Below are positions 26,830 through 60,711 of a DNA stretch of 64,000 nucleotides, piece after piece (position 1 is the first letter of the stretch; each line of letters opens with the position of its first letter). A program made the translations under genes and the position numbers. Source of the DNA: Arsenicicoccus dermatophilus (lineage in GTDB: Bacteria > Actinomycetota > Actinomycetes > Actinomycetales > Dermatophilaceae); assembly GCF_022568795.1 (NCBI RefSeq), contig NZ_JAKZHU010000001.1:1798001-1862000 (forward strand). Direction: 5' to 3'. The notes under the pieces are model-generated. The model ran no database searches, was not told the origin of the DNA, and was given only the letters and a program-made list of their open reading frames with translations.

Positions 26830-28836
26830 TCAGTCGAGCACCTCGCCGGTGGTGAGGTTGATGTCCGGCTGGACCGCGGCCGCCCCGCCACGCAGGCGGT
26901 CGTGGACCGTCTGGGCCAGCGCCGGGCCGACACCCTTGACGGTCTGCAGCTCGGCCACGTCGGCCTCGCGCAGGCGCTTGACCGAGCCGAAGGCCTTGAG
27001 CAGGGCCCTCTGCCGGGCCTCCCCCAGCCCGGGTATGCCGTCCAGGGCGCTCGCGGTCATCGCCTTGGAGCGGCGCTGCCGGTGGAAGGCGATCGCGAAG
27101 CGGTGGGCCTCGTCACGGACCCGCTGCAGCAGGTAGAGCCCTTCGCTGGACCGCGGCAGGATCACCGGGAACTCGTCACCCGGGAGCCACACCTCCTCCA
27201 GCCGCTTGGCCAGCCCGACGAGCGCGACGTCGTCGACGCCCAGCTCCTCCAGCACCGCCTGGGCGGCGTTGACCTGGGGCAGGCCGCCGTCGACCACGAC
27301 GAGCTGTGGCGCATAGGCGAAGCGCCGGGGCTTCCCGGTCTGCGGGTCGATGACCGCGGCCACGGCGGCGGCAGCCTCGGCGTCGCCCGACGCGAGCGCC
27401 TCCGCGGCGTCGGCCTGCTGGGCGAGGTGGCGCCGGAACCGGCGGGTCAGCACCTCGCGCATGGCGGCGGTGTCGTCGACCTGCGGGTCCTCGCCCTCGG
27501 GCGCGTCGCCGCGGACGACGAAGCGGCGGTACTCCCCCTTGCGGGGCAGCCCGTCCTCGAAGACCACCATGGACGCGACGACGTTGGTGCCCTGGACGTG
27601 GGAGACGTCGTAGCACTCGATCCGCAGGGGTGCCTCGGTGAGGCCGAGGGCGTCCTGCAGCTCCTGGAGGGCCTGGCTGCGGGCGGTGAGGTCCCCGGCG
27701 CGGGCGACCTTGTGGCGGGCGAGGGCCTGGTCGGCGTTGCGCCGGACGGTGGCCATCAGCTCGCGCTTGTCGCCGCGCTGCGGGACCCGCACCTCCACGC
27801 CCGAGCCGCGCAGGTCGGTGAGCCACTCCTGCACCGAGGCGTGGTCGTCCGGCAGCACCGGGACCAGCACCTCGCGGGGGACCCCGTCGCCGCTCTCCCC
27901 GCCATACACCTGCTGGAGGAGTCGGGCGACGAGCAGCGCGGGGGTGGCCGTGTCCTCGGACTCGCGCTCGACGACCCAGCCGCGCTGCCCGCGGATGCGG
28001 CCGCCGCGGACGTGGAAGACCTGCACGGCGGCCTCGAGCTCGTCGTCGGCGACCGCGAAGACGTCGGCGTCGGTGGCGTCGCCGAGGACGACCGCGGACT
28101 TCTCCAGCGCCTTGCTCATCGCCTGGAGGTCGTCGCGCAGCATCGCCGCCCGCTCGAACTCCAGCGCGTCCGACGCGGCGAGCATCTCGCGCTCGACCCG
28201 CTTGACGAACTTCGTCGTCGAGCCGGCCATGAAGTCGCAGAAGTCCTCGGCGATGGCCCGGTGCTCCTGCGCGCTCACCGAGCCGACGCAGGGGGCGGAG
28301 CACTTGTCGATGTAGCCGAGCAGGCAGGGGCGGCCGACCTGCGCGGCCCGCCGGAAGACCCCTGAGGAGCAGGTCCGGACGGGGAACACCTTGAGCAGCA
28401 GGTCCAGGGTCTCGCGGATCGCCCAGGCGTGGCCGTAGGGGCCGAAGTAGCGGGTGCCCCTGCGCTTGGCGCCGCGCATGACCTGGGCGCGGGGGAACTC
28501 CTCCCCCATGGTCACGGCGAGGTAGGGATAGGACTTGTCGTCGCGGTACTTGACGTTGAAGCGGGGGTCGAACTCCTTGATCCAGGAGTACTCCAGCTGC
28601 AGGGCCTCGACCTCGGTGCGCACGACGGTCCACTCGACGGAGGCGCCGGTGGTGACCATGCGGCGGGTGCGCGGGTGCAGGGCCGAGATGTCCTGGAAGT
28701 ACGAGCTCAGGCGGCTGCGCAGGGACTTCGCCTTGCCGACGTAGATGACCCGCCCTTCCTTGTCGCGGAAGCGATAGACGCCCGGGTCGACCGGGATCTC
28801 TCCGGGTCGCGGTCGGTAGGTCGAGGGATCAGCCAC
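26830..28836 (-). CDS. uvrC: Excinuclease ABC subunit C
   Basis: Makes both cuts in nucleotide excision repair. 668 residues: GIY-YIG nuclease ([25 protein letters not shown], about 18-95), Cys-rich region [17 protein letters not shown] motif (about 205-240), the RNase H-like second nuclease with [19 protein letters not shown] and [12 protein letters not shown], then helix-hairpin-helix motifs ([23 protein letters not shown]). The GTG start lies six bases after TACCCT, part of a RecA-NDp-like promoter, so its mRNA is probably leaderless and DNA-damage induced. Confidence 0.97.
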
Positions 28837-28865
28837 CGGGACAGGGTATGTCCCGGTGCCGACAC
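28837..28865 (-). promoter_or_regulatory. RecA-NDp/PafBC-like promoter of uvrC
   Basis: Minus strand: GTGTCGGCA (28865-28857), eight bases, then -10 TACCCT (28848-28843), six bases, GTG. Matches the mycobacterial LexA-independent damage promoter consensus tTGTCRgtg-N8-TAnnnT. Confidence 0.6.
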
Positions 28866-28872
28866 CTCCTGG

Positions 28873-29140
28873 TCAGCCGCGCGTCGCGGCCTCCAGGGCG
28901 GTCACGTCGCGCCCGAGCTCCACCGCCGTGAACGCGCTGGGCTCGCCCCGGTCGCCGCCGTCGGGACGGGGGGACGTCGGTGAGGATCCGCAGGCTCGGG
29001 ACCACCGAGGTCCGCGGGCGGGCGACGTCGAGGGCGTCGCCGTCGAACCACAGGGAGAGGGGTCACGGACGGCACGGGCATGCCGGTGCTGGTGGGGAGG
29101 ACCAGCCCGTATGCCGGGCCGTGCCGCCGCCCTCCCGGCC
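28873..29140 (-). pseudogene. Frameshifted remnant of an unidentified gene
   Basis: Between uvrC and the zinc-ribbon membrane protein the minus strand holds protein-like segments in three successive frames. They are AYGLVLPTSTGMPVPSVT (around 29070-29125), LSLWFDGDALDVARPRTSVV and onward (about 28977-29060), and GEPSAFTAVELGRDVTALEA ending at a TGA at 28873-28875. The breaks fall at G runs (the six-G run near 28966-28972 and a four-G run near 29060), so either the gene has decayed or bases were lost in sequencing. I do not recognise the family. No intact start is visible. Confidence 0.45.
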
Positions 29141-29176
29141 GCCGGGCCGGTCCGCCCGGCGGGAGCCGCGATCGGT

Positions 29177-31522
29177 TCAGCGCAGCACGGCCACGCGTCG
29201 GCGCAGGTGTCGCAGGTCCTCCAGCCGCGCCTCCCAGGTGATCCCGAGGGCCAGGAGCACCCCTCCCCCGGCCCCGAGCGGCAGCCAGGGCGGGAGATAG
29301 CCCACCCACGGGGCCACCCGGACCAGCGCCAGCACCGCCAGCACCGTCGCGCCGACGTGCAGGTGCGCCGCGGTCCGCCGGGCGGCCCCGACCACGACCA
29401 GGCCCACCGCGACGACGACCACGGCGAGCGCCCGCCCCGAGGACAGGTCGGCGAGGGACACCAGGGCGCTGGTGCCCAGGGCGATCCCGAGCACGGGGAG
29501 CGCGGGCGCGGACGGCACGCGCGACGTCACCAGCTCGCGCCAGACCCAGGGGGCGAGGGCGGCCGCGGCGGACAACGAGTAGGCCTCCGGGATGCTCACC
29601 CGCAGGTCGAGGAGGAGCGACCAGGCGGTGCCCGTCGCGCAGGCGGTCGCGAGGACGGCCCAGGTGCGGCGGGCCGCGGCCGAGGCGGTCCCGGCCCGCG
29701 CCAGGCTCACCAGGGTGGCGCCGGCGAGGACGCCCGCGAGCAGCCGGAGGTCGGGAGAGGCGGTGGAGACCGCGGTGGCCCACCAGGGCAGGCTCCACAG
29801 GGCTCGTCCCCGGGGCTGCGGGGCCGCCGCGCCGACCAGGACGATCGCCACGGCGACGGTGACGCCGACGGCCGTGGCCGTGGCCGACGTCAGTCCGGGC
29901 TGGTGGGCGGTCCACGGCACGGCGCCCGCGGCGAGGACGGGGCCGAGGCCGTCGATCCAGGACGACCGGCGCCTCCGTGCCAGGGTGCGGCAGGCGACGA
30001 GCACCAGCACCGTGGCCGGCCAGGTCCAGGCGACGCCGGGTCGCGGGGGCCGGTGCCACCCGCGGCCGGTCAGGTCGCCTGCGGTCAGACCGACGGCCTG
30101 GGAGAGCACGGCGCGGCTCAGCCCGTCCCCGAGGGCCCCGAGCAGCGGTATGGCGAGGACGGCGGTGGCGGGCAGCACCACCGAGGCCGTGGCGAGGACG
30201 CGTGGTGCGGCTCCTGCGCCCTCCTGCGCCGGGCGCGACCGCAGCGTCAGGCCACCCGCGAGGCAGCCCGCCAGGGCCAGCGACGTCCACGGCCCGAGGC
30301 CGGCCGGGAGCACCCGCACCGCGCCGACGACCCAGGCGGCCAACGCCGCGGCGGCCGCGGCCTGCAGCAGCGTCGGGGCGGCCGCGGCGCACGACGCCGC
30401 ACTCGTCCGGTCGTGCCGCTGCTCCCCGGGCCCGGTCCGGTCGGGACCGGGGTGGTCAGGCCATGCCCTCTCGGGCTGGGGCGACGTCGGGTCGAGCTCG
30501 GCCGGGAGCCACCGGATGTCCTGGGGCCAGGGCACCCGGGAGGTGGTCACGGCCGCCAGGGCCAGGGCGGCGGCGACCGCCGGCAGCTGCCAGGCATCCC
30601 GGAGCGCAGCCGTCGGCGTCGTGGCCCACGAGGACGCGGTGAGCGCGTCGGCGATCACGACGAGGACCGAGGCCACGCCGCCGAGAGCAGCGCCCGTCAG
30701 CGCCAGGGGGGTGGCGCGCACCAGCCGCGGGCGCCAGGCCGCGACGACGGCCACCACCGGGAGAGCCACGAGGGTGACCGGCTGCCAGTCCCCCAGCTGG
30801 ACGCACGCGATCACGAGGGCGGTGGCAGTCCCGAGTCCGGTCACCGCGTCCGCCGCCAGCCACCGGCGCGTGGTCCGCAGCTGCGCCACCGCACCCGCGA
30901 CGCCCAGCGCGGCCCACCCGATGGCGTCCTCGCCCGGGAGGTCGACCTCGGCCACCAGGATGCGCCAGGCCACCATGACCAGTGCGGCGGCCAGTGCCCC
31001 GAGGGTCTCCGCGGAGCCCACGAGGCGGCGTCGGTCCAGGGCCCTGGCGCCGGCGATCGAGGCGCCCGCGAGGAGCAGGAGCACGACGGCTCGACCGACC
31101 CGGCCCAGCAGGGCCCAGCCCACGAAGGCGAAGACGCTGCCCGCCGCCGTCACGCACAGGGCCCCGACCGCGAGCAGGACTGCGCGCCCTCGGCCCGCGG
31201 CTGCGAGCCCGGCCCGCGGCACGTCCCGGGGCCGGGTGGGGTGCGCGGACCGTCCTGCCACGGCAGCGGTCGCGGCACCGGCCCGGTCGACCGGCACGCC
31301 GAAGGCCGCCCGGTCGGTGACCAGGGCGGCCTTGGTGCGGTCGGCCTCGTGGAGCGTGGCGGCGAGGCGGGCGACGAGCGGGTGATCGAGCTGCAGGGTG
31401 CACCCCTGGCAGCGAGGAGCACCCGTGGCGAGCGGAGAACCGCAGACGGGGCAGTGCGTGGGGTCGAAGTACGCGACCGGTGGTGGGGCGACGGGGGTCG
31501 AGGAGCGGGTGATCGCGGCCAT
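29177..31522 (-). CDS. Zinc-ribbon polytopic membrane protein (SCO7613-like)
   Basis: About 781 residues. An N-terminal zinc ribbon (CPVCGSPLATGAPRCQGC, Cys-x2-Cys, Cys-x2-Cys) is followed by a short helix and then some twenty hydrophobic segments of Ala/Val/Leu to the C-terminus. This is the layout of the SCO7613 C-terminal domain membrane proteins of actinobacteria, function unknown. The start at 31522 is chosen because CAGGCT lies six bases before the ATG; the GTG at 31573 is the other option. It follows uvrA on the same strand by 67 bases. A charged, Pro-rich loop near residue 360 (SPQPERAWPDHPGPDRTGPG) divides two membrane blocks. Confidence 0.75.
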   Translation of the reverse strand: MAAITRSSTPVAPPPVAYFDPTHCPVCGSPLATGAPRCQGCTLQLDHPLVARLAATLHEADRTKAALVTDRAAFGVPVDRAGAATAAVAGRSAHPTRPRDVPRAGLAAAGRGRAVLLAVGALCVTAAGSVFAFVGWALLGRVGRAVVLLLLAGASIAGARALDRRRLVGSAETLGALAAALVMVAWRILVAEVDLPGEDAIGWAALGVAGAVAQLRTTRRWLAADAVTGLGTATALVIACVQLGDWQPVTLVALPVVAVVAAWRPRLVRATPLALTGAALGGVASVLVVIADALTASSWATTPTAALRDAWQLPAVAAALALAAVTTSRVPWPQDIRWLPAELDPTSPQPERAWPDHPGPDRTGPGEQRHDRTSAASCAAAAPTLLQAAAAAALAAWVVGAVRVLPAGLGPWTSLALAGCLAGGLTLRSRPAQEGAGAAPRVLATASVVLPATAVLAIPLLGALGDGLSRAVLSQAVGLTAGDLTGRGWHRPPRPGVAWTWPATVLVLVACRTLARRRRSSWIDGLGPVLAAGAVPWTAHQPGLTSATATAVGVTVAVAIVLVGAAAPQPRGRALWSLPWWATAVSTASPDLRLLAGVLAGATLVSLARAGTASAAARRTWAVLATACATGTAWSLLLDLRVSIPEAYSLSAAAALAPWVWRELVTSRVPSAPALPVLGIALGTSALVSLADLSSGRALAVVVVAVGLVVVGAARRTAAHLHVGATVLAVLALVRVAPWVGYLPPWLPLGAGGGVLLALGITWEARLEDLRHLRRRVAVLR

Positions 31523-31589
31523 CGCCCCAGCCTGGCTGCCGGGCCGACCGCTGGTGAGAGTAGGAGTACTCACCCCGACCGGGCGAGGC

Positions 31590-34500
31590 CTACGCGGGGG
31601 ACCCCTTCGCGGTGGTGGTCGCGGCCTTCTTCGTGGCCGCCTTGCCCGCCGCCCTCGACGAGGCCGCCTTCTTCGCGGCTGCCTTCTTGCCCGGGGCCTT
31701 GGCGGCTGCCTTCTTCGTGGTGGCCTGGCCCGCGGGCGAGTCGGCGTCGCCCCGGCCCGCGGCGGCGGACTTCGTCGCCGCGGCTGCCGCCCGGCGGATG
31801 CCCGCGCGCACGGGTCGGTCGATCGGCACGGCGACCTTGGCGTCGAAGGTCTCCGTCGTCTTGGCGATCACGGGGGCGAGGAAGCGACCGGTGTGGGAGG
31901 CCTCGCTGGCCGCCACCTCCTCCGGGGTGCCGGTGGCGACGACGGTGCCGCCGCCCGAGCCCCCCTCCGGGCCCATGTCCACGATCCAGTCGGCGTTCTT
32001 GATGACGTCGAGGTTGTGCTCGATCACGAGCACGGTGTTGCCCTTGTCGACCAGGCCCTGCAGGACGAGCAGCAGCTTGCGGATGTCCTCGAAGTGCAGC
32101 CCGGTCGTGGGCTCGTCGAGGACGTAGATGGTCCGCCCGGTGGAGCGCTTCTGCAGCTCCGCGGCGAGCTTGACCCGCTGGGCCTCACCGCCCGAGAGCG
32201 TCGTGGCCGGCTGACCGAGCCGGACGTAGCCCAGCCCCACCTCGACCAGCGTGCTCAGGTGGCGCGAGATGGCGGGGACCGCCTCGAAGAAGGTCGCCGC
32301 CTCCTCGATGGGCATGTCCAGGACGTCGGCGATGGTCTTGCCCTTGTAGTGCACCTCGAGGGTCTCGCGGTTGTAGCGCGCCCCGTGGCACACCTCGCAG
32401 GGGACGTAGACGTCCGGGAGGAAGTTCATCTCGATCTTGATGGTGCCGTCGCCGTTGCACGCGTCGCAGCGACCGCCCTTGACGTTGAACGAGAACCGAC
32501 CTGGCTGGTAGCCACGGACCTTGGCCTCCGTGGTCTGCGCGAAGAGCTTGCGCATGTGGTCGAAGACGCCGGTGTAGGTCGCGGGGTTGGACCGGGGGGT
32601 GCGGCCGATGGGTGACTGGTCGACGTGGACCACCTTGTCCAGGTGCTCCAGGCCGGTGACGGTGCGGTGGCGACCCGGCACCTGCCGGGCGCCGTTGAGC
32701 TTGTTGGCCAGGACGGTGTAGAGGATGTCGTTGACCAGCGTGGACTTCCCGGACCCGGACACCCCGGTCACGGCGACGAGGTTGCCGAGCGGGAAGGTGA
32801 CGTCCACGCCGGTCAGGTTGTGCTCGGTCGCACCGATGACGGTCAGCTCCCTGCCGGGCTCCTGAGGACGCCGCACCGCGGGCATCGGGATCTCCCGCCG
32901 TCCCGCGAGATAGGCGCCGGTGAGCGAGGACTCGCTGGCCAGCAGCTCGGCGACCGGGCCGCTGTGGACGACCTTGCCACCGTGCTCGCCCGCCCCCGGT
33001 CCGATGTCGACCACCCAGTCCGCGGCTGCGATGGTGTCCTCGTCATGCTCCACGACGATGAGCGTGTTGCCCAGGTCGCGCAACCGGGTCAGGGTCGAGA
33101 TGAGCCGGTGGTTGTCCCGCTGGTGCAGGCCGATCGACGGCTCGTCCAGGACATACAGCACGCCCACCAGACCGGACCCGATCTGGGTGGCCAGCCGGAT
33201 GCGCTGGGCCTCGCCGCCGGACAGGGTGCCGGCCGGACGGTCCAGGGAGAGGTAGTCCAGGCCGACGTCCAGCAGGAAGCCGAGGCGGGCGTGGATCTCC
33301 TTGACCACTCGCTCGGCGATCTGCTGCTCGCGCTCGGTGAACTCCACGCCGCGCAGGAAGGACGCGGCGTCGCCGATCGACAGGCCGCACACCTCCGCGA
33401 TGTTCTTGCCGCCCAGCAGGACCGACAGGACCTCCGGCTTGAGGCGGGCTCCGGCGCAGACCGGGCAGGGGATCTCGCGCATGTAGCCCTCGTAGCGCTC
33501 GCGCGACCACTCCGAGTCGGTCTCCGAGTGCCGACGTCGCACGAACGGCAGGACCCCCTCGAAGCCGGTCGAGTAGGACCGCTCCCGCCCCCACCGGTTG
33601 CGGTACTTCACGTGCACCTTGTGGTCCTGACCGTGCAGCAGCGCCTCGCGGGCCCGGTCCGGCAGCGAGCGCCACGGCACGTCCAGGCTGAACGACAGGT
33701 CCTTGGCCAGTGCCCCGACGACGCGCAGGAAGTAGTCCTGGGAGCCGCTCCCCTGCGCCCAGGGGGCGATCGCCCCGTCGCGGATGCTCAGCTCCTCGTC
33801 CGGGATCACCAGGTCGGGGTCGACCTCCAGCTCGGTGCCGATGCCGGAACAGTGGGGGCAGGCGCCGTAGGGAGCGTTGAACGAGAAGGTGCGCGGCTCG
33901 ATCTCGTCGATGGCGAGCGGGTGGTTGTTGGGGCAGCCCATGCGCTCCGAGAAGCGGCGCTCGCGTGCGACGGGACGCCCGTCCTTGTCGGTGTCGCCCT
34001 CCTGGACGTCGACGAGCTCGACGGTGAGGATGCCGCCGGTCAGACCCAGCGCGGTCTCCACGGAGTCGGTGAGCCGCTGCTTGCCGGTGGCGTCCCCGCC
34101 CTTGGCCACGAGCCGGTCCACGACCACCTCGATGGTGTGCTTGCGCTGCTTCTCCAGCGTCGGCGGCTCGGTGAGGGAGACGACCTCGCCGTCCACGCGC
34201 GCGCGGGAGAAGCCCTTGGTCTGCAGCTCGGCGAAGAGGTCCACGAACTCACCCTTGCGACCCTGCACCACCGGGGCGAGCACCTGGAAGCGGGTGCGGT
34301 CGGGGAGCGCGAGCAGCTGGTCCACGATCTGCTGCGGCGTCTGGCGCCCCACCGGCTCCCCGCAGGTCGGGCAGTGCGGCCGGCCGGCGCGGGCGAACAG
34401 CAGCCGCAGGTAGTCGTAGACCTCGGTGATGGTGCCCACCGTCGACCGCGGGTTCCGGTTGGTGGACTTCTGGTCGATCGACACCGCCGGCGACAGGCCC

Positions 34501-34790
34501 TCGATGAAGTCGACGTCGGGCTTGTCCATCTGCCCCAGGAACTGGCGGGCGTAGGCGGACAGGCTCTCGACATACCGCCGCTGTCCCTCGGCGAAGATCG
34601 TGTCGAACGCCAGGGAGGACTTGCCCGACCCTGACAGACCGGTGAACACGACCAGCCCGTCGCGCGGCAGGTCCACCGAGATGTCGCGCAGGTTGTGCTC
34701 CCGAGCCCCGCCGACCACGAGCCGGTCGTGCTGCGCGCGAGGCTGCGGGGTGCGGTCGGACGAGCGGGACGCGAGGGAGGTGTCAGACAC
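31590..34790 (-). CDS. uvrA: Excinuclease ABC subunit A, with Lys/Ala-rich tail
   Basis: Damage-recognition ATPase of nucleotide excision repair. Two ABC ATPase halves: Walker [10 protein letters not shown] (about 51-59) and GVSGSGKST in the second half, with ABC signatures LSGGEAQR twice; zinc fingers CPHCSG and CDACNGDG...CEVCHG. At 1066 residues it exceeds the usual 940-990 because the last 73 residues are a histone H1-like tail rich in Ala and Lys ([18 protein letters not shown]), about twelve Lys, likely DNA-binding. GTG at 34790 is taken as start since the -10 TACGAT of a damage-type promoter lies seven bases upstream; ATG 34799 would overlap that hexamer. The frame runs on to 35276 only as an artefact. 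Confidence 0.95.
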
Positions 34791-34797
34791 GAGCGTC

Positions 34798-34820
34798 ATC
34801 GTAGGGGCGCCTACCGACAT
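34798..34820 (-). promoter_or_regulatory. RecA-NDp/PafBC-like promoter of uvrA
   Basis: Minus strand: ATGTCGGTA (34820-34812), eight bases, -10 TACGAT (34803-34798), seven bases, GTG at 34790. Confidence 0.6.
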
Positions 34821-34896
34821 ACCCCCTGCTGACACTCTGCGTGCCCGGACGGCTGCCGAGAGGCACGAACCGGTGGTCTCGTCTAGGGTCGTCCGT

Positions 34897-35634
34897 ATGA
34901 CGGACGCCACCTTCGACGCGGATCTCGGCGCGCTGCGCGCCCAGACCGCCCGGCTCCTCGACACCGCGTCCAGCCTGGACGACGAAGCGCTGCGCGGCCC
35001 CTCCCTGTGCACCGGGTGGACCCGGGCCCACGTCCTCGCCCACGTCACCCGCAACGCCCGCGCGATGCGCAACCTGGTCGCCACCGTCCAGGGCACGCCG
35101 ACGCCGATGTATCCCTCCCGGCAGGCTCGCGACGCGGACATCGAGCAGGGCGCCCGCCAGTCCCGGGACGAGCTGCTCGCCGAGCTGCGGACCTCCGCGG
35201 AGGAGCTGGACCAGGTCCTGGCCGGGCTGGACGACGCCGCCCGGGCCGCCACGGCGCAGGTCGGCAGCGGCCACACCCTGACGGGCGCGCAGCTGCCCTG
35301 GCACCGGTTGCGCGAGGTCGCCTGGCACCACGTGGACCTCGACGCCGGCTACTCCTTCGCCGACGCCCCCGCCGAGCTCGTCGGGAGGTGGTTCGAGGAG
35401 GAGGTCGCGGCGCTGCGCGCGGACGCGGACACCCCCTCGATGTGCCTGCGGACGGACGAGCGCGACGTCGTGTCCTTCGGCGACGGACGGCCCACGGTCA
35501 GCGCCTCCCGCGCCGGGATGCTCCGGTGGCTCCTGCGCGACCGGGCGGACCAGATCGACGCGCCGGCCCAGGACCGGCTCCCCCGGCTCCGCCCCACCAC
35601 CCCCAACCCCACCCACGAGGAGGACCCTCAGTGA
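34897..35634 (+). CDS. Maleylpyruvate isomerase family (mycothiol-dependent DinB-like) protein
   Basis: 245 residues. N-terminal DinB-like metal-binding domain: [22 protein letters not shown] carries a metal His, with further ligands in [20 protein letters not shown]; a C-terminal domain follows. Family members are mycothiol S-transferases or maleylpyruvate isomerases using mycothiol, the actinobacterial thiol. TAGGGT seven bases before the ATG suggests a leaderless mRNA. The stop overlaps the start of the next gene (GTGA), so it is coupled to an MBL-fold hydrolase. Substrate not deducible. Divergent from uvrA. Confidence 0.87.
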
Positions 35635-41672: not shown

Positions 41673-43781
41673 TCAGCGAGTGGCCTCCGTCATCTGCCGC
41701 AGCTCCTTCTTGAGGTCACCGAGCTCGTCGCGCAGCCGGGCCGCCAGCTCGAAGTGGAGCTCGGTCGCGGCCTGGTGCATCTGCTGGGTGACCTCCTGGA
41801 TGAGCTCGGCCAGCTCGGCGGCCGGCATCGACCGAGCCTGGTCGAGCAGTGCGCCCTTGTCGGCGCCGGCCGCCGCAGCTGCGCCCCGCCCCTTGGCCTT
41901 GCCCCGCGACTGACCACGAGCGCTGCCCAGCAGGGCCTCGGTGTCCGCCTCCTCCTTGGCGATCAGGTCGGTGATGTCGGCGATGCGCTTGCGCAGCGGC
42001 TGCGGGTCGATCCCCCGCTCGGTGTTGTAGGCGACCTGCCGCTCCCGGCGGCGGTTGGTCTCCTCGATCGCCTCCTGCATCGAGGGGGTGATCGTGTCGG
42101 CATACATGTGGACCTGGCCGGACACATGGCGCGCCGCACGTCCGATGGTCTGGATCAGCGACCGCGTCGACCGCAGGAAACCCTCCTTGTCGGCGTCCAG
42201 GATGCTCACCAGCGACACCTCGGGCAGGTCGAGGCCCTCGCGCAGCAGGTTGATGCCGACGAGCACGTCGTACTCCCCCATCCGCAGCTCGCGCAGGAGC
42301 TCCACGCGGCGGAGGGTGTCGACCTCGGAGTGCAGGTAACGCACCCGCACGCCCTTGTCGAGGAGGTAGTCGGTGAGGTCCTCCGCCATCTTCTTGGTCA
42401 GCGTGGTGACCAGGACGCGCTCGTCCTTCGCGGTGCGCTCGCGGATCTCGTGGAGCAGGTCGTCGATCTGCCCCTTGGTGGGCTTGAGCACGATCTCGGG
42501 GTCGATCAGACCGGTCGGGCGGATGATCTGCTCCACCACGCCGTCGGACTTGGCGAGCTCGTACGCCCCCGGCGTGGCGGACAGGTAGACCGTCTGGCCG
42601 ATGCGCTCGAGGAACTCCTCCCACTTGAGCGGGCGGTTGTCCATGGCGCTCGGCAGCCGGAAGCCGTGGTCGACGAGCTGCCGCTTGCGCGACATGTCAC
42701 CTTCGTACATCGCGCCGATCTGCGGGACCGTCACGTGGGACTCGTCGATGACCAGGAGGAAGTCCTCGGGGAAGTAGTCCAGCAGCGTGTTGGGCGCCGT
42801 CCCCGGGGCGCGACCGTCGATGTGCATCGAGTAGTTCTCGATGCCGGAGCAGGTGCCGACCTGACGCATCATCTCGATATCGTAGGTGGTGCGCATGCGC
42901 AGGCGCTGGGCTTCCAGCAGCTTGCCCTGCTGCTCGAAGGTCCGCAGCTGCTCCTCCAGCTCGCGCTCGATCCCGGTGATGGCCCGCTCCATCCGCTCCT
43001 CGCCGGCCACGTAGTGCGTGGCCGGGAAGACGTACATCTCCTGCTCCTCGCGCACGACCTCGCCGGTCAGCGGGTGCAGGGTGTAGATCCGCTCGATCTC
43101 GTCACCGAAGAACTCGATGCGGATGGCGAGCTCTTCGTACTGCGGGATGATCTCGACCGTGTCGCCGCGCACCCGGAAGGTGCCGCGGGTGAAGGCCAGG
43201 TCGTTGCGCGTGTACTGCATCGTGACGAACCGGCGCAGCAGCTCGTCGCGCTCGATCTCCTGCCCGACCTTGAGCCGCACCATGCGGTCGACGTACTCCT
43301 GCGGGGTGCCCAGGCCGTAGATGCAGGACACCGACGCGACCACCACGGTGTCCCGCCGCGTCAGCAGCGAGTTCGTCGCGCTGTGCCGCAGCCGCTCGAC
43401 CTCCTCGTTGATGGACGAGTCCTTCTCGATGTAGGTGTCCGTCTGCGCGATGTAGGCCTCGGGCTGGTAGTAGTCGTAGTAGCTCACGAAGTACTCGACC
43501 GCGTTGTTGGGCAGCAGGTCCCGGAACTCGCTCGCCAGCTGCGCCGCCAGCGTCTTGTTGGGCGCCATCAGCAGGGTCGGGCGCTGCACCTGCTCGATCA
43601 GCCAGGCCGTGGTCGCCGACTTGCCGGTGCCCGTGGCGCCCAGCAGCACGATGTCCTGCTCGCCCGCCTCGATGCGCCGCGCCAGCTCGGCGATCGCCGT
43701 GGGCTGGTCCCCGCTCGGGGAGAACTCGGACACCACGTCGAAGGGTGCCACCCGGCGCTGGATGTCGGTGGTCGGTCGCAT
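41673..43781 (-). CDS. uvrB: Excinuclease ABC subunit B
   Basis: Damage-verification helicase of nucleotide excision repair, 702 residues. Walker [16 protein letters not shown] (about 47-61), the beta-hairpin [17 protein letters not shown] box, [14 protein letters not shown] and QTIGRAARH, ending with the UVR domain ([22 protein letters not shown]) that contacts UvrC. An Ala/Gly/Lys-rich linker (about 625-650) precedes the UVR motif. TAGGCT lies six bases before the ATG; the promoter matches the RecA-NDp motif. Confidence 0.98.
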
Positions 43782-43787
43782 GGACCC

Positions 43788-43810
43788 AGCCTAGGACCGA
43801 CCACCGACAT
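43788..43810 (-). promoter_or_regulatory. RecA-NDp/PafBC-like promoter of uvrB
   Basis: Minus strand: ATGTCGGTG (43810-43802), eight bases, -10 TAGGCT (43793-43788), six bases, ATG. The closest match to tTGTCRgtg-N8-TAnnnT in the window. Confidence 0.7.
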
Positions 43811-43834
43811 ACCCCTGCCGGCGCAGGACGGGAC

Positions 43835-53203: not shown

Positions 53204-53295
53204 GTAGTAGGAACTCCGATGATGGACAGGGTGAATAGGTGGGTATGGTGCTCGCCTGCGCGTCGGGCACGGTTCACCCACGTGCAAGCCTGTCT

Positions 53296-53325
53296 ACCCT
53301 AACGGTCCGGTCACGGGCCGGTCAA
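53296..53325 (-). promoter_or_regulatory. rpsA promoter
   Basis: -35 TTGACC (53325-53320) and -10 TAGGGT (53301-53296) with an 18-base spacer, the clearest housekeeping promoter in the window. The transcript would have a leader of about 90 bases. Confidence 0.7.
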
Positions 53326-53349
53326 AGCAGGTCAGGGTCAGGAGACGGT

Positions 53350-54186
53350 ATGACGGCACCGGAGCGTGGCAGCTTCGCGGGGGTGTCCCGACGCGGCAGC
53401 GACCAGGACGAGTCGGCCCGGGCCAACCGGGGATGGTGGGACGCCGAGGCGACCGACTACTACGCCGAGCACGGCGACTTCCTCGGCGACGCCGACCTGG
53501 TCTGGGGGCCCGAGCGCCTGCGCGAGGTCGACGCCCGCCTGCTCGGGCCCGCGGAGGCGCTCCCCGGGCTGCGGGTGCTCGAGATCGGGGGCGGCGCCGG
53601 CCAGGGCGGCCGCTGGCTGCAGGACCAGGGCGCCGTCGTCGTCTCCACCGACCTGTCCACCGGGATGCTGGCGCAGGCCCGCAGGATCGACGGGCGCCGG
53701 ACACCGGCGACGGCACTCCCCCTCGCCGCGTGCGACGCGGCACTGCTCCCCTTCGCGGACACCTGCTTCGACCTGGTCATGACGGCTTACGGCGCCGTGC
53801 CCTTCGTCGCGGACTCCGCGGCCGTGGTGCGGGAGGCGGCCCGGGTGCTGCGGCCGGGCGGGCGGTTCGTCTTCTCCACCACCCACCCGATCCGGTGGGC
53901 CTTCCCGGACGTGCCCGGCGAGGCCGGGCTCACCGCCGCCAGCTCCTACTTCGACCGCTCCCCCTACGTGGAGGAGGACGAGGCCGGGCAGGCGCTCTAC
54001 GTCGAGCACCACCGCACCCTCGGCGACCGGGTGCGCGAGATCGTCGCCGCAGGCCTCACCCTGGTGGACCTCGTCGAGCCGGAGTGGCCCGAGGGGCACG
54101 ACCAGACGTGGGGTGGGTGGAGCCCCCTGCGTGGTCGCCTGCTGCCCGGGACGGCGATCTTCGTCTGCGAGCGACCGACGCGCTGA
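53350..54186 (+). CDS. Class I SAM-dependent methyltransferase
   Basis: 278 residues. NRGWWDAEATDYYAEHGDFLGDADLVWGPERL at the N-terminus is typical of an actinobacterial subgroup; motif I is RVLEIGGGAGQGG, then STDLSTGMLAQA and LRPGGRFVFSTTHP. AGGAG five bases before the ATG sets the start. Substrate unknown; a small metabolite is likely. Divergent from rpsA. Confidence 0.9.
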   Translation: MTAPERGSFAGVSRRGSDQDESARANRGWWDAEATDYYAEHGDFLGDADLVWGPERLREVDARLLGPAEALPGLRVLEIGGGAGQGGRWLQDQGAVVVSTDLSTGMLAQARRIDGRRTPATALPLAACDAALLPFADTCFDLVMTAYGAVPFVADSAAVVREAARVLRPGGRFVFSTTHPIRWAFPDVPGEAGLTAASSYFDRSPYVEEDEAGQALYVEHHRTLGDRVREIVAAGLTLVDLVEPEWPEGHDQTWGGWSPLRGRLLPGTAIFVCERPTR

Positions 54187-54277
54187 CGCCCGGCGCGGCA
54201 GGCCCGGCGCAGCCCTGCTGGCCGGCCCACCTGGCCCCGGGCTCGGACGGAGGGACACGGTCCGGCATACTCGCCAC

Positions 54278-55978
54278 GTGGACACCAAGCCGTTCCCCTC
54301 TGACATCGAGATCGCGCGCGCCGCCGATCTCGCCCCGATCCCCGACGTCGCCGCGATGGTCGGCATCGACGCCAAGCACCTGATTCCCTACGGCCCGCAC
54401 GTGGCCAAGGTGGAGCTGGACGTCATCGAGGAGATGAAGGACCGCCCCGACGCAAAGTACGTCGTGGTCACCGCCATCACCCCCACCCCGCTCGGCGAGG
54501 GCAAGACCACGACCGCCGTCGGTCTGGCCCAGGGCCTGGCCAAGATCGGCCGCAAGCCCGTGCTCGCGCTGCGCCAGCCCTCCCTCGGCCCGGTCTTCGG
54601 CGTCAAGGGTGGCGCCGCCGGTGGCGGCTACAGCCAGATCGTCCCGATGGAGATGCTCAACCTGCATCTCACCGGTGACTTCCACGCGGTCACCGCCGCG
54701 CACAACCTGCTCGCCGCCATGGTGGCCAACCACCTGCACTTCGGCAACGAGCTGGGTCTGGACGACATCCAGTGGCGTCGTGTGATGGACATGAACGACC
54801 GCTCGCTGCGCAACATCATCGAGGGCTGCGGCGCCAAGACCGACGGCGTCACGCGGCAGACCGGCTTCGACATCACCGCCGCGTCCGAGGTCATGGTCAT
54901 CCTGGCCCTCGCCACCTCGCTCAAGGACCTGCGCGAGCGGCTCGGCCGCATCGTGGTCGGCTTCACCAAGGACAAGCAGCCCGTCACCGCCGAGCAGATC
55001 GGCGCCGCGGGCGCGATGTGCGTGCTCCTCAAGGACGCGCTCAAGCCCAACCTCATGCAGACCCTGGAGCACACGCCGGCGTTCATCCACACCGGCCCCT
55101 TCGGCAACATCGCCACGGGCAACTCCTCGATCATCGCGGACCGCGTGGGCATCAAGGCGGGCGACATCCTGCTGACCGAGGCGGGCTTCGCCGCCGACAT
55201 GGGCGCCGAGCGCTTCTTCAACGTCAAGTGCCGCGCGGCGGGTCTGACCCCGCAGGCGGCCGTCCTGGTCGTCACCGTGCGGGCGCTGAAGTCCCACTCG
55301 GGTCGCTACGAGGTCAAGGCAGGCAAGCCGCTGCCCGAGGGCATGCTCGTGGAGTCCCCGGACGACGTACGCGCCGGGTGCGACAACCTGCGCAAGCACA
55401 TCTCGATCATCCGGGACTTCGGCGTGCAGCCGGTCGTGGCGATCAACGCCTTCCCCACCGACCACGCCTCCGAGCACGACGTCATCCGTGAGGTCGCCGA
55501 GGAGATGGGCGCCCGGTGCGCCGTCTCGACGCACGTCAAGGACGGCGGCGAGGGCGCCGTCGAGCTCGCCAGGACGCTGATCGAGGCCTGCGAGGACGAG
55601 GTGAACTTCACCCCGACCTACGAGTTCGAGGACTCGCTGCAGGACAAGATCCGCAAGATCGCCACCAAGGTCTACGGCGCCGCCGACATCAAGCTCGAGC
55701 CTGCGGCCGCCAAGGCGCTGGCGATGTACACCGACCAGGGCTACGGCCACCTGCCGGTGCTCATCGCCAAGACCCAGATGTCGCTGTCCCACGACGCCGC
55801 TCTCAAGGGTGCGCCGACGGGTTGGACCCTCCCGGTGCGCGAGGTGCGCCTCGCGGCCGGCGCCGGCTACGTCTATGCCATCTGCGGCTCCATGATGACG
55901 ATGCCCGGCCTGTCCAAGTCGCCCGCGGCCATGCGGATCGACATCGACGAGAACGGCGACACGGTCGGCCTGTTCTGA
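54278..55978 (+). CDS. fhs: Formate-tetrahydrofolate ligase
   Basis: 566 residues. Makes 10-formyl-THF from formate, ATP and THF for one-carbon metabolism. TPTPLGEGKTTTAVGLAQ is the ATP loop; RQPSLGPVFGVKGGAAGGGY and TGDFHAVTAAHNLL are also conserved. The GTG at 54278 has CATACT six bases upstream. With Kbl/Tdh-derived glycine it ties into one-carbon supply. Confidence 0.96.
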   Translation: MDTKPFPSDIEIARAADLAPIPDVAAMVGIDAKHLIPYGPHVAKVELDVIEEMKDRPDAKYVVVTAITPTPLGEGKTTTAVGLAQGLAKIGRKPVLALRQPSLGPVFGVKGGAAGGGYSQIVPMEMLNLHLTGDFHAVTAAHNLLAAMVANHLHFGNELGLDDIQWRRVMDMNDRSLRNIIEGCGAKTDGVTRQTGFDITAASEVMVILALATSLKDLRERLGRIVVGFTKDKQPVTAEQIGAAGAMCVLLKDALKPNLMQTLEHTPAFIHTGPFGNIATGNSSIIADRVGIKAGDILLTEAGFAADMGAERFFNVKCRAAGLTPQAAVLVVTVRALKSHSGRYEVKAGKPLPEGMLVESPDDVRAGCDNLRKHISIIRDFGVQPVVAINAFPTDHASEHDVIREVAEEMGARCAVSTHVKDGGEGAVELARTLIEACEDEVNFTPTYEFEDSLQDKIRKIATKVYGAADIKLEPAAAKALAMYTDQGYGHLPVLIAKTQMSLSHDAALKGAPTGWTLPVREVRLAAGAGYVYAICGSMMTMPGLSKSPAAMRIDIDENGDTVGLF

Positions 55979-56129
55979 CCGGTCACCGGGTCTGGGCCCG
56001 AGAGGTATGACGGCGCGCCCGTCCGCGGATCCCCGCGGACGGGCGCGCGGCCTGTCCCGGTGCTCACCCGCAGCGTCGGCCGAGCACCCACCTCGCGTCC
56101 CGCCGCAGCACTCCGGGGTCCGGCCGGAT

Positions 56130-57236
56130 GTGCGAGCCTGGGCCCATGGCCGCCCCCCGCTCCTGCAGACTCTCCTGGACCACCGGCACACCCCGCTCGG
56201 CCTGCTCGCGCTGGCCGCCGTCTGGGGGCGGGAGCCGACCCCGGTCCTGGTGGCGATCGTGGCGGTCCTGCTCGGCGCCGCCGTGCTCGCGGCCGTGCAC
56301 CATGCCGAGGTGGTGGCCCACCGGGTCGGGGAGCCCTTCGGCTCGCTCGTCCTCGCCGTCGCGGTGACCGTGATCGAGGTGGCCCTGATCGTCACCCTGA
56401 TGGCGTCCGGAGGCAAGGGCACCAGCACCCTGGCCCGCGACACCGTCTTCGCCGCCGTGATGATCTGCACCAACGGCATCCTGGGGCTCTCCCTCCTCAC
56501 CGCCTCGGTGCGGCACGGCATCGCGAACTTCCACCCGGAGGGCACCGGGGCGGCCCTGGCCACGGTCCTCACCCTCGCCGTGCTCTCGCTGGTGGTGCCT
56601 ACCTTCACCAGCACCCCCGGCCCGGAGTTCACCGGACCACAGCTGGCCTTCGCCGCCATCACGTCGCTGGTGCTCTACCTGCTCTTCGTGGCCACCCAGA
56701 CCCGGGGCCACCGCGACTTCTTCCTGCCGGTCGACGACGACGGCGAGGCGCAGGAGGAGGAGCATGCGGCACCGCCGTCGACGCGAGCGGCCTGGACCTC
56801 GCTGGGGCTGCTGCTCGCGGCCCTGGTCGCCGTCGTCGGCCTGGCCAAGGTCGAGTCCCCCGCGCTCGAGACCGGGATCCGCTCCGCCGGGCTCCCGGCG
56901 TCGTTCTCCGGCGTGGTGATCGCTCTGCTCGTCCTGGCCCCGGAGACCTTGGCGGCCGCCAACGCCGCGCGCCGTGGACGCACCCAGATCGCCCTCAATC
57001 TGGCCCTCGGGTCGGCCATGGCGAGCATCGGCCTGACGATCCCGGCCATCGCCCTGGTCACCATCTGGACCGGCGGGCCGCTGCACCTCGGCCTCGGGGC
57101 TCTGCACCTGGCGCTGCTGGCCGTCACGGCGGTCGTCGCCGTCCTCACCGTGGTGCCTGGGCGGGCCACCCGCCTGCAGGGCGGCGTGCACCTGGCGCTG
57201 CTCGCGGCCTACGTCTTCCTCGCTGCCAATCCCTGA
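56130..57236 (+). CDS. ChaA-like cation/proton exchanger
   Basis: About 368 residues, some eleven membrane helices. Conserved exchanger helices include AVTVIEVALIVTLMASGG and VVIALLVLAPETLAAANAARRG, and a central acidic loop (VDDDGEAQEEEHA) splits two repeats. Predicted calcium, sodium or potassium export against protons. The start is unsure: the GTG at 56130 keeps the frame, but an ATG at 56146, six bases after GAGCCT, would be in frame only if the C run just after it had one more base. The 200 bases downstream show no gene. Confidence 0.85.
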   Translation: MRAWAHGRPPLLQTLLDHRHTPLGLLALAAVWGREPTPVLVAIVAVLLGAAVLAAVHHAEVVAHRVGEPFGSLVLAVAVTVIEVALIVTLMASGGKGTSTLARDTVFAAVMICTNGILGLSLLTASVRHGIANFHPEGTGAALATVLTLAVLSLVVPTFTSTPGPEFTGPQLAFAAITSLVLYLLFVATQTRGHRDFFLPVDDDGEAQEEEHAAPPSTRAAWTSLGLLLAALVAVVGLAKVESPALETGIRSAGLPASFSGVVIALLVLAPETLAAANAARRGRTQIALNLALGSAMASIGLTIPAIALVTIWTGGPLHLGLGALHLALLAVTAVVAVLTVVPGRATRLQGGVHLALLAAYVFLAANP

Positions 57237-57440
57237 TCTCCCGTCGGTCCTGGGCACTCGGCGTCCGTCGGGTCTTCCAGGGGATCGACCAGTACCGCGA
57301 GGCGTCCGGAGCCCCGTCGAGGCCCGGTCGGGCCCTCGCCAGCCACGGGGTCCTGGCCAGGGCCCGACCTGGCCGAACCGGGCGCCCCAGCCCCGGCCAG
57401 GCCAGGCGGAGGGCGGGGCCACGGGCGCCGGCGGCGCGGC

Positions 57441-57977
57441 TCAGAAGAGCAGGGTCGGCAGCAGCCCCCGCTCCCGCAGCTGCTCCACCTGCGGGTCGTC
57501 GCACCACGGCTCGGCGGCCGGGTCGACCCACTGGACGGCGCGGCCCTCAGGACTGTCGAGCTGCCGGGTGAGGATCGCCGGGAAGCACGACGAGCGGGTG
57601 CCGGTGGTGCCGGTGACGGTCACCCCGCGGGAACCGACCTCGACGACGGCGCCCGCCTCCTCGTAGGTCTCCCGGGCGGCGGCACGCATCCGGCTCTCGC
57701 CGCGCTGCACCCCGCCGCCGGGCAGGGTCCATCCCCCGCCTCGGCGCTCCACCACCAGCAGACGTCCGTCCCGGACCACGCAGGCGCACACCCGGTTGGC
57801 CCGCGCCGAGGGCGGTGACAGCTCGAGGAGCGGGCGAGGACCGGGCGGTTCCTCGGGCAGGGGCGCGGGCTCGGGAGCGGGCTCGGCCAGGTCGGCGAGG
57901 CCGGGCAGGAGCGGCTCCTCGACCCCGCGCATGGCCTCGGGACGACGGGTGAGAAGGGGATCGACGCGACCGGTCAC
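57441..57977 (-). CDS. Nudix hydrolase
   Basis: 178 residues. The Nudix box GGGVQRGESRMRAAARETYEEAG is complete, with the metal-binding Glu pair. An N-terminal Pro-rich stretch (about 30-52) precedes it. Starts four bases after the polA stop, so it is translated from the polA mRNA and may clean the nucleotide pool. Substrate unknown. Confidence 0.87.
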   Translation of the reverse strand: MTGRVDPLLTRRPEAMRGVEEPLLPGLADLAEPAPEPAPLPEEPPGPRPLLELSPPSARANRVCACVVRDGRLLVVERRGGGWTLPGGGVQRGESRMRAAARETYEEAGAVVEVGSRGVTVTGTTGTRSSCFPAILTRQLDSPEGRAVQWVDPAAEPWCDDPQVEQLRERGLLPTLLF

Positions 57978-57981
57978 CGGA

Positions 57982-60681
57982 TCAGTGCTCCGCGTCCTGC
58001 CAGGACCGCCCGACGCCGACGTGCACGTCGAGGGGGACGTCCATCTCGACGGCGGCGCCCATCTCCCGACGCACCAGGGCCTCCACGGTCTCCCGCTCGC
58101 CCGGTGCCACCTCGAGCAGCAGCTCGTCGTGGACCTGCAGCAGCATCCGCGAGCGCAGGCCCTCGGCGCGCAGCGCCCGGTCGATGCCGAGCATGGCGAG
58201 CTTGACGATGTCGGCCGCCGAGCCCTGGATCGGCGCGTTCAGCGCCATCCGCTCGGCCATCTCGCGGCGGTTGCGGTTGTCGCTGGTCAGGTCCGGCAGG
58301 TAGCGCCGGCGCCCGAGGATGGTGGCGGTGTAGCCCGTGGTGCGCGCCTCCGCCACGATCTCGCGCAGGTAGTCGCGAACCCCGCCGAAGCGCTCGAAGT
58401 AGCCGTCCATGAGCCCCTGCGCCTCGCCGGTGGAGATCCGCAGCTGCTTGGACAGCCCGAAGGCGGACAGCCCGTAGGCCAGGCCGTAGCTCATGGCCTT
58501 GACCTTGGCGCGCATCGCCGGCGTCACGTCGCCCGGATCGACCTGGAAGACCCGCGACCCGACGAAACGGTGCAGGTCCTCCCCCGACCGGAAGGCCTCG
58601 ACGAGGCCGGCGTCGCCGGACAGGTGCGCCATGATCCGCATCTCGATCTGGCTGTAGTCCGCCGACATGAGGGACTCGAACTCGACGTGCTCCCCGCCCT
58701 CGCGTCCCCGGCCCACCACGAAGACCGACCGGATCCGGCGGCCCTCCTCGGTGCGGATGGGGACGTTCTGCAGGTTGGGCTCGGTGGAGCTGAGCCGGCC
58801 GGTCGCCGCGACGGTCTGCAGGTAGGTCGTGTGGATGCGGCCGTCCTCGGCCACCGACTTGCGCAGGCCCTCGATGGTGGAGCGCAGCTTGGCGGCGTCC
58901 CGGTGCCGCAGCAGCGCCTCCAGGAAGGGGTGCGGCTCGCGCTCGTACAGGTCCTTGAGCGCCTCGGCATCGGTGGTGTAGCCGGTCTTGGTCCTCTTGG
59001 TGCGCGGCATGCCCAGGGTCTCGAACAGCACCGTCTGCAGCTGCTTGGGCGAGCCCAGGTTGACGGTGTCGTCGCCGATGGCGTCGTGGGCGTCCTGCTG
59101 GGCGGCGCGCACCTGGTCACCGAACTCGCTCTCGAGCGTGGCGAGCCCCTCCTGGTCCACGCCGATCCCGTCACGCTCCATCTCGGCGAGGACCCGCAGC
59201 AGGGGCAGCTCCACGTCCGTGAGCAGCGCCCGCTGGCCGGTGCGCTCCAGCTCGGCCTCGAGGACCTCGGCGAGGTCGACCACGGCACGGGCCCGCACCA
59301 TGGCGGTCTGCGCCTCGGCGTCCTGGTCGGCGGAGAAGTCGAGCATGCCCTGCGCAGAGCCGGTGCCGTCCACGGTGAGCTCGCGGTGCAGGTGCCGCAG
59401 CGCCAGGTCGGCCAGGTCGTAGGAACGCTGGTCGGGGCGCACGAGGTAGGCCGCCAGGGCGGTGTCCACGTCCACCCCGGCCACCTCGGGGAATCCTCTG
59501 GCCCACAGGGCCTGCAGCTGGCCCTTGGCCTCGTGCAGCACCAGGGTGGCGGCCGGGTCGGCGAGCCACCGTCCCAGGGCGGTCTCGTCGTCGGGCGTGA
59601 GGTCCTGGGCGGCGGCGTAGGCCCCGGAGCCGTCCGGCGCGGCGAGGGCCAGACCGTCGACGTCACGGGTCCCCCTCGCCCACCGACCCACGACGACCAG
59701 GCCGCAGCGGCCGGTGGCGGCATGCTCGGCGAGCCAGCCGCCCAGCTCCCCGGGGGCGAGGGTCGCCCCGTCGATCGCGAAGCCGCTCTCGGCCTCGGGC
59801 GCGGCCGACTCGACCGTCGCGAACAGGCGGTCGCGCAGCACCCGGAACTCCAGGCCGTCGAAGACCCGGTGCACCTCGTCGCGCTCCCAGTTGGCGCGGG
59901 CGAGGTCGTCGATCGTGATCGGGAGCTCGACGTCGCGGACCAGCTGGTTGAGGCGCCGGTTGCGCAGGACCTGGTCCAGGTGGGTGCGCAGGGACTCGCC
60001 GGCCTTGCCCTTGATCTCGTGCACATGCTCGACGATGCCCGCGAGGTCCCCGTACGCGGTGATCCACTTGGCGGCGGTCTTGGGACCTACGCCAGGCACG
60101 CCGGGCAGGTTGTCGGAGGTCTCCCCCACCAGGGCGGCCAGGTCGCTGTAGCGCGACGGCGGCACGAGGTACTTCGTCTCCACCGCGGCGGGGTCCATCC
60201 GCCATACCTCCGACACCCCCCGGACGGGGTAGAGCAAGGTCGTGCGGTCGTCCACCAGCTGGAAGGCGTCACGGTCCCCGGAGCAGATGACCACCTCGTC
60301 GATGCCGGCCTCGCGGGCCTGGGTGGTGAGCGTGGCGATGATGTCGTCCGCCTCGAAGCCCTCGACCGACAGGTGCCGGATCCTCAGGGCGTCCAGGACC
60401 TCCTGCACCAGCGAGACCTGCCCCTTGAACTCGTCCGGCGTCGCGGAACGCCCGGCCTTGTACTCGGCGTACTCCGCCATGCGGAAGGTCTGCCGCGACA
60501 GGTCGAAGGCCACCGCCACGTGCGTCGGTTGCTCGTCGCGCAGGAGGTTGATGAGCATGGACGTGAAGCCGTAGACGGCGTTGGTGGTCTGTCCGGTGCT
60601 CGTCGAGAAGTTCTCGGCGGGCAGGGCGAAGAACGCGCGGTAGGCCAGGGAGTGTCCGTCGAGGAGCAGGAGTCGGGTCAC
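57982..60681 (-). CDS. polA: DNA polymerase I, probably without proofreading
   Basis: 899 residues. 5' nuclease domain (LLLLDGHSLAYRAFFALP, VEGFEADDIIATL, GVGPKTAAKW, 1-300), a degenerate exonuclease-like middle (about 315-500) and the polymerase core with SADYSQIEMRIMAHLS, the YGLAYGLSAFGLSK finger and QVHDELLLE. Exonuclease motif I (Asp-x-Glu) is missing, so 3'-5' proofreading is probably lost, as in mycobacteria. The GTG at 60681 is seven bases after TAGGCT, part of a damage-type promoter; the open frame to 60906 is not used. Fills gaps in excision repair. Confidence 0.97.
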   Translation of the reverse strand: MTRLLLLDGHSLAYRAFFALPAENFSTSTGQTTNAVYGFTSMLINLLRDEQPTHVAVAFDLSRQTFRMAEYAEYKAGRSATPDEFKGQVSLVQEVLDALRIRHLSVEGFEADDIIATLTTQAREAGIDEVVICSGDRDAFQLVDDRTTLLYPVRGVSEVWRMDPAAVETKYLVPPSRYSDLAALVGETSDNLPGVPGVGPKTAAKWITAYGDLAGIVEHVHEIKGKAGESLRTHLDQVLRNRRLNQLVRDVELPITIDDLARANWERDEVHRVFDGLEFRVLRDRLFATVESAAPEAESGFAIDGATLAPGELGGWLAEHAATGRCGLVVVGRWARGTRDVDGLALAAPDGSGAYAAAQDLTPDDETALGRWLADPAATLVLHEAKGQLQALWARGFPEVAGVDVDTALAAYLVRPDQRSYDLADLALRHLHRELTVDGTGSAQGMLDFSADQDAEAQTAMVRARAVVDLAEVLEAELERTGQRALLTDVELPLLRVLAEMERDGIGVDQEGLATLESEFGDQVRAAQQDAHDAIGDDTVNLGSPKQLQTVLFETLGMPRTKRTKTGYTTDAEALKDLYEREPHPFLEALLRHRDAAKLRSTIEGLRKSVAEDGRIHTTYLQTVAATGRLSSTEPNLQNVPIRTEEGRRIRSVFVVGRGREGGEHVEFESLMSADYSQIEMRIMAHLSGDAGLVEAFRSGEDLHRFVGSRVFQVDPGDVTPAMRAKVKAMSYGLAYGLSAFGLSKQLRISTGEAQGLMDGYFERFGGVRDYLREIVAEARTTGYTATILGRRRYLPDLTSDNRNRREMAERMALNAPIQGSAADIVKLAMLGIDRALRAEGLRSRMLLQVHDELLLEVAPGERETVEALVRREMGAAVEMDVPLDVHVGVGRSWQDAEH

Positions 60682-60688
60682 GCATGGC

Positions 60689-60711
60689 AGCCTAGGCCGT
60701 ATGTCTGACAC
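60689..60711 (-). promoter_or_regulatory. RecA-NDp/PafBC-like promoter of polA
   Basis: Minus strand: GTGTCAGAC (60711-60703), eight bases, -10 TAGGCT (60694-60689), seven bases, GTG. It overlaps the first codons of the divergent thioesterase gene. Confidence 0.55.

Follow-up and report, generated by a model that had tools for sequence, protein, structure and literature searches.

In mycobacteria, UvrABC and recA are targets of PafBC, and the associated promoter type, RecA-NDp, is known in other Actinobacteria, according to a review of the system (PMC8223512). For M. tuberculosis, the motif has been published as TGTCGG/TGTCAG-N10-TANNNT (PMC8151990). PafBC in the complex from M. smegmatis is positioned between promoter DNA and sigma domain 4, with the PafB helix-turn-helix on the -26 element and the PafC helix-turn-helix on sigma 4 (PMC11804915). 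When the authors of a Streptomyces study first searched S. venezuelae, they reportedly found no conservation of the M. smegmatis motif (PMC9380542). Here we describe promoters of this type within a 64,000-nt stretch of contig NZ_JAKZHU010000001.1 (the window), together with an additional sequence block that, among the genomes examined, is restricted to one genus.

Promoter cores before uvrC, uvrA, uvrB and polA

We searched the window for the core pattern TGTCRG-N10-TANNNT; this search identified four exact matches, compared with a mean of 0.08 in dinucleotide shuffles, and none of 100 shuffles reached four. All four matches lie on the minus strand, each 6-7 bases 5' of the start of uvrC, uvrA, uvrB or polA. 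When we varied the gap between the two hexamers from 6 to 14 bases across the window, N10 gave the four matches, N7 gave one, and the remaining gaps gave none. The identities of UvrC, UvrA, UvrB and PolA are based on HMM scores above the curated NCBIfam cut-offs.

The uvrC core (TGTCGG-N10-TACCCT; 28843..28864, minus strand), recovered by both the pattern search and the spacing scan, has its -10 hexamer at 28843-28848, 6 bases before a GTG start at 28836; the open reading frame (26830..28836, minus strand) matches NF001824 with 1089.9 bits (cut-off 451). The uvrA core (TGTCGG-N10-TACGAT; 34798..34819, minus strand), from the pattern search, has its -10 at 34798-34803, 7 bases before a GTG start at 34790, and the full-length open reading frame (31590..34790, minus strand) matches NF001503 with 1566.4 bits (cut-off 1147). 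The uvrB core (TGTCGG-N10-TAGGCT; 43788..43809, minus strand), also from the pattern search, has its -10 at 43788-43793, 6 bases before an ATG start at 43781; this open reading frame (41673..43781, minus strand) matches NF003673 with 1080.5 bits (cut-off 743). The polA core (TGTCAG-N10-TAGGCT; 60689..60710, minus strand), again found by pattern search and spacing scan, has its -10 at 60689-60694, 7 bases before a GTG start at 60681, and the full-length open reading frame (57982..60681, minus strand) matches NF004397 with 1021.3 bits (cut-off 720).

Immediately before their cores, the uvrA and uvrB promoters have the hexamer GGGGTA in the -35 slot (34820..34825 and 43810..43815, respectively, both minus strand). 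These extensions, the most unusual feature of the promoters, were overlooked in the first-pass annotation of this DNA. At the same position, the polA promoter has GAGGTG (60711-60716, minus strand), which agrees at four of six positions with the GGGGTM block described below, and the uvrC promoter agrees at two of six.

The first-pass annotation had reported a PafBC-type motif at these four genes with a -10 hexamer 6-7 bases before each start, and both points are borne out, with the adjustment that its coordinates carry one extra base at the 5' end. Its identical 8-base spacing was counted from the 9-mer tTGTCRgtg and is equivalent to the gap of 10 bases between TGTCRG and TANNNT that we found in all four promoters. 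It had also stated that the motif is absent at coaE, pdtaR, DUF554 and gap (names as in that annotation), in line with the lack of any further exact match in the window.

Distribution of the core, regulator genes and conservation

The whole genome (3.5 Mb, 11 contigs, 72% GC) contains 34 copies of the core pattern, compared with one copy of the reversed pattern used as a control. The first-pass annotation had suggested scanning the genome for hits 6-7 bases before gene starts; at 23 of the 34 sites, a start codon (ATG or GTG, beginning a reading frame of 60 codons or more) occurs at +6 or +7 after the -10, and start codons at 50 other offset pairs averaged 1.6 with a maximum of 7. The spacing would fit leaderless messages. 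A start codon at +6 or +7 is missing at 11 of the 34 sites, which counts against the regulon reading.

Based on HMM searches of the downstream genes, 20 of the 34 sites lead into DNA repair or replication genes. Eighteen lie directly before a repair, recombination, replication or nucleotide-supply gene: uvrC, uvrA, uvrB, polA, recA, recR, radA, dnaX, sbcD, and genes for a RecQ-type helicase, a TM0106 RecB-like nuclease, a Hel308/Ski2-like helicase, a PD-(D/E)XK nuclease, a GyrB/ParE-type protein, a DEDD exonuclease with a GIY-YIG domain, a dgt-type HD hydrolase, a thymidylate kinase and an SNF2 helicase. Two more were counted through a downstream gene; one precedes the run tlyA - NAD kinase - recN, and the other precedes a DUF6504 gene followed by a 99-aa open reading frame that has the PHP domain found at the N-terminus of DnaE-type polymerases. 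DUF6504 usually accompanies dnaE2. The remaining 14 sites, which count against the regulon reading, precede genes without an evident repair role (WcbI, radical SAM, DUF2188, NTP transferase, peptidase M1, MutL-like, NUDIX, enoyl-CoA hydratase, DHDPS and histidinol dehydrogenase, hisD) or genes without a family match (four loci: L003, L020, L022 and L036).

The site of the dgt-type gene (L023/L389; G000:C1:1474374-1474412) is a near-perfect inverted repeat in which either strand has a TAGGGT -10. On the opposite strand, a sulfurtransferase-like gene of 288 aa begins with an ATG 6 bases beyond the -10, and this promoter may fire in both directions. We rejected a palindrome as a general property of the sites, most of which are not inverted repeats of this kind.

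Leaderless genes often carry TANNNT 6-7 bases before the start, and TGTCRG-N10-TANNNT could be a generic housekeeping promoter of high-GC leaderless genes that repair genes carry without any damage regulator. The 14 sites before other genes, such as hisD and the DHDPS-family gene, would suit such a promoter; however, the 3.5-Mb genome has just 34 sites, and repair or replication genes account for 20 of them. The first-pass annotation had regarded an equal frequency of the motif before unrelated genes as the outcome contradicting a shared regulon, and the same genome-wide counts failed to refute its proposal.

The genome also encodes the regulator, as the first-pass annotation had proposed checking. 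Contig C1 has two neighboring WYL genes near 1136300-1138282, and the best structure matches of their products are solved PafBC structures (9fnd, 7p5x and 6sj9 for the first; 6sj9 and 7p5x for the second). On the 3' side of this pafBC locus are tatC- and tatA-like open reading frames (read by eye) and a Ski2-like helicase gene with its own GGGGTM-extended site.

Using a scan for exact boxes only, from -150 to +250 around each of the four sites in the window, we identified no LexA-like box (GAACN4GTTC), and among the 34 core sites the exact box occurs at two, those of recA (L024) and the DUF6504 gene (L019). The claim in the first-pass annotation that the promoters are independent of LexA is consistent with this result as far as the exact box goes; it falls short of proof, as mycobacterial uvrA and uvrC respond to both pathways, LexA and PafBC, according to the review cited above (PMC8223512).

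We compared the uvrA, uvrB and polA promoters across 28 of 29 genomes of the order, including our own; genome G071, whose match lacked the N-terminus, and one paralogue row per gene were dropped from the counts. An exact core occurs upstream of uvrA in 21/28 genomes, of uvrB in 21/28 and of polA in 20/28, and equal-length coding controls gave 0/28 for each gene. For uvrC, we compared 80 loci from named actinobacteria: 30 have the exact core and 47 have it with at most one mismatch (control 0/80), and rows from Arthrobacter, Microbacterium and Brevibacterium have none. Among the named uvrC sequences compared, those of Pedococcus (75%) and Intrasporangium (74%) are the closest. Loss of the uvrC site in much of the order counts against the regulon reading. 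Over 164 promoter regions, N10 gave 92 matches and the spacings N5-9 and N11-15 gave none; a single spacing argues against a generic promoter. Relatives from different genera (L295-L322) are unusually alike at polA both in the spacer, commonly TCATGGG or TCATACG, and in the TAGGCT-GCC segment, more so than at uvrA or uvrB.

Among 58 relatives, the core occurs 1,877 times versus 267 for the reversed pattern, and 52 of the 58 genomes exceed twice the control. Twenty-six named actinobacteria together contain 1,192 core sites versus 214 reversed; within this set, Rothia, Glutamicibacter and Corynebacterium do not exceed twice the control. The S. nigrescens genome (G008) has 101 core sites versus 6 reversed, and 13 of 14 Streptomyces uvrC rows have the site with at most one mismatch; both results bear on the non-conservation printed for the initial S. 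venezuelae search (PMC9380542).

The motif excess follows the presence of PafB loosely (Spearman 0.35, p 0.007, 58 genomes, uncorrected for kinship). Two near-complete genomes without a PafB match, G064 and G080, show no excess (11 core versus 11 reversed sites and 13 versus 29, respectively), which again argues against a generic promoter, and taking these lines together we consider that explanation very unlikely. Three genomes with a weak PafB match have an excess (core/reversed: G063, 45/11; G076, 18/5; G058, 23/4, the last from an assembly that is 81% complete), as does G059 (18/0), a 58% complete genome with no PafB match. G044 has PafB and no excess (10/17), and G072, with a PafB match of 35% identity, has no sites. 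In G063, which belongs to the same order, the PafB match has an E value of 3e-6 and 27% identity, and many of its 45 core sites read TGTCGGAG; this suggests that the regulator or the motif has diverged.

The PafBC reading is well supported because the motif counts, the start spacing, the link to repair genes, the presence of PafB and PafC, the conservation and the single spacing all point to it. On these sequence comparisons, the proposal in the first-pass annotation of a PafBC-type motif marking one regulon gains support, and it is well supported that the four genes have a real, conserved PafBC-type promoter, probably as expected additions, from a new lineage, to a regulon already known.

The GGGGTM block in the -35 slot

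We aligned the 34 core sites of the genome and found that the six positions before TGTCRG (-6 to -1) have a consensus of G (26 of 34), G (26), G (29), G (31), T (27) and A/C (29), or GGGGTM. If transcription starts at the start codon, the block lies at approximately -34 to -29, i.e., in the -35 slot. It is complete at 16 of the 34 sites, including uvrA and uvrB, and agrees at five or more positions at 26. When we searched for GGGGTM-N16-TANNNT with TGTCRG left unspecified, 23 sites were found versus one for the reversed pattern, and 16 of the 23 have TGTCRG.

An extended site with one core mismatch (GGGGTC-CGTCGG-N10-TAGGCT; L391 6594-6634, G000:C1:846593-846620) occurs 10 bases before an open reading frame that matches PcrA/UvrD; its sequence is cut by the end of the locus, so that the score is below the cut-off. 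By this match, the frame is a predicted fifth excision-repair gene (a helicase) that the strict core missed. Another site (L170; G000:C1:2776428-2776455), GGGGTC-N16-TAGCAT without TGTCRG, lies 31 bases before a clpC-like open reading frame identified by eye.

The latter site could be taken to favor another regulator, e.g., ClgR, as the reader of these promoters, with or without PafBC; in M. smegmatis, ClgR recognises the P1 region and repair genes need clgR (PMC5656591). However, PafBC has been assigned to the motif by binding-site mapping and structures (PMC8223512, PMC11804915), and we judge a role for ClgR as the reader to be extremely unlikely.

In five congeners, the extended pattern GGGGTM-TGTCRG-N10-TANNNT occurs 16, 18, 21, 16 and 12 times, i.e., at 83 of 252 core sites. 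It was found at none of the 1,625 core sites of 53 other relatives and at none of the 1,192 core sites of the 26 named actinobacteria. Among the genomes examined, GGGGTM is thus restricted to one genus. One congener, G028, has two identical PafB loci (C3 and C8; equal score, identity and range), so its assembly is probably redundant and its 21/70 sites may be partly doubled; without G028, the contrast is 62/182 versus 0/1,625. We also inspected the flanks of 60 chosen sites outside the genus (G002, 20/35; G065, 20/44; G011, 15/43; G001, 5/36), and none has GGGGTM. The shorter block GGGGT is present at uvrA and uvrB in 5/5 congeners and in 0/23 other genomes, and at polA in 1/5 congeners.

The block might instead be a side effect of composition or of the common descent of a few promoters rather than a working part. 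The genome is 72% GC, the full block is missing at uvrC and polA, polA has GGGGT in only one congener, and G runs flank sites elsewhere, e.g., five sites in Pedococcus. However, composition predicts approximately 0.3 extended sites in the genus, where 83 were seen, and 1.9 in the other relatives, where none was seen; in addition, the search that ignored TGTCRG returned mostly sites with it, and the block at uvrA and uvrB is kept in all five congeners even though the N10 spacer differs. We therefore regard a side effect as unlikely, and GGGGTM, to judge from its distribution, appears to make these promoters a genus-specific variation on the PafBC type, described here as new. Extension of this kind is not mentioned in the portions of the PafBC/RecA-NDp literature covered by our search, and literature containing the extended strings gave no link to actinobacterial promoters among the matches listed.

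We considered several candidate readers of GGGGTM. The last 110 residues of sigma-A (region 4) do not differ between the five congeners and genomes outside the genus, such as G040 (29 of 30 rows compared; G064 has no row), and a change in sigma-A region 4 was rejected on this basis. GGGTAT, the consensus of a sigma-F-type -10, is contained in GGGGTAT; a sigma-B/F type -10 was also rejected, as the columns from -30 to -9 show no conserved upstream element at the 34 sites. Elsewhere in the window, a match to a sigma-70 C-terminal model (5328-5978, plus strand; 87 bits, below the cut-off) marks an alternative sigma factor. The PafB proteins of the congeners are 65-79% identical to that of the window genome. 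In 30 aligned PafB/PafC pairs, seven columns of PafB and two of PafC have a residue that is invariant within the genus but rare elsewhere, and none of these falls in what we take to be the recognition helices. Alignment column 84 of PafB, an E in the presumed wing, is fixed in the genus and also present in one outsider. The DNA-reading helices of PafB and PafC thus offer no clear match for GGGGTM, and a change there was set aside as its counterpart.

The placement of PafBC between promoter and sigma domain 4 (PMC11804915) would leave the -35 DNA open to an additional contact, which could be made by a slightly altered PafBC or by a different protein. It is a tentative possibility, which we do not favor, that one genus rewired its whole PafBC regulon, such that nearly all sites gained GGGGTM, to be read by a second protein or a new PafBC contact, with the excision-repair genes under a two-part damage switch seen in no other genus examined. 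The block nevertheless offers a natural experiment in which dozens of promoters changed together: it is genus-wide, it is absent from 53 other relatives, and sigma region 4 is unchanged.

Taken jointly, we consider it highly probable that uvrA, uvrB, uvrC and polA belong to a PafBC (RecA-NDp type) DNA-damage regulon that works by the mechanism described for the M. smegmatis PafBC complex (PMC11804915), with GGGGTM as an added element. Single-stranded DNA made by damage would activate the PafB-PafC heterodimer; the reading head of PafB would hold TGTCRG as the -26 element and the housekeeping RNA polymerase would hold TANNNT, allowing sigma-A to work without a normal -35. RNA would then start at or beside the start codon, yielding leaderless messages, and the genes for excision and gap filling would rise together. 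GGGGTM, which occupies the -35 slot at most sites in the genus, may strengthen or restrict this promoter class.

Comparison with known damage-response systems

The LexA/SOS regulon resembles the system described here in co-regulating repair genes upon DNA damage, and the recA and DUF6504 sites of this genome have an exact LexA-like box as well; it differs in using a repressor with a palindromic box, which in exact form is absent from the four window sites. Two other WYL activators, DriD (Caulobacter) and SiwR (M. smegmatis), are, like PafBC, associated with DNA damage or genotoxic stress (DriD: PMC11804915). DriD and SiwR are homodimers, whereas PafB and PafC pair as a heterodimer whose site is not a palindrome (PMC11804915, PMC6789036).

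The RecA-NDp promoters of Streptomyces recA and SCO6735 are of the same type as those in the window, and promoters of this type are described before damage-response genes of Actinomycetales (PMC5087735); in contrast to the genome described here, none of the 101 core sites of S. nigrescens has GGGGTM. The mycobacterial PafBC regulon, with its RecA-NDp (P1) promoters, shares with this genome the core, the spacing, the regulator genes, and UvrABC and recA as targets. We did not meet polA, recQ, radA, dnaX or recR as PafBC targets in the parts of the mycobacterial literature consulted, which were not searched gene by gene. The comparison carries a damage regulon characterized chiefly in mycobacteria over to a family in which it has received little study, with predicted targets ready to test, and relative to the mycobacterial regulon the feature peculiar to this genome is GGGGTM in the -35 slot at 16 of its 34 sites.
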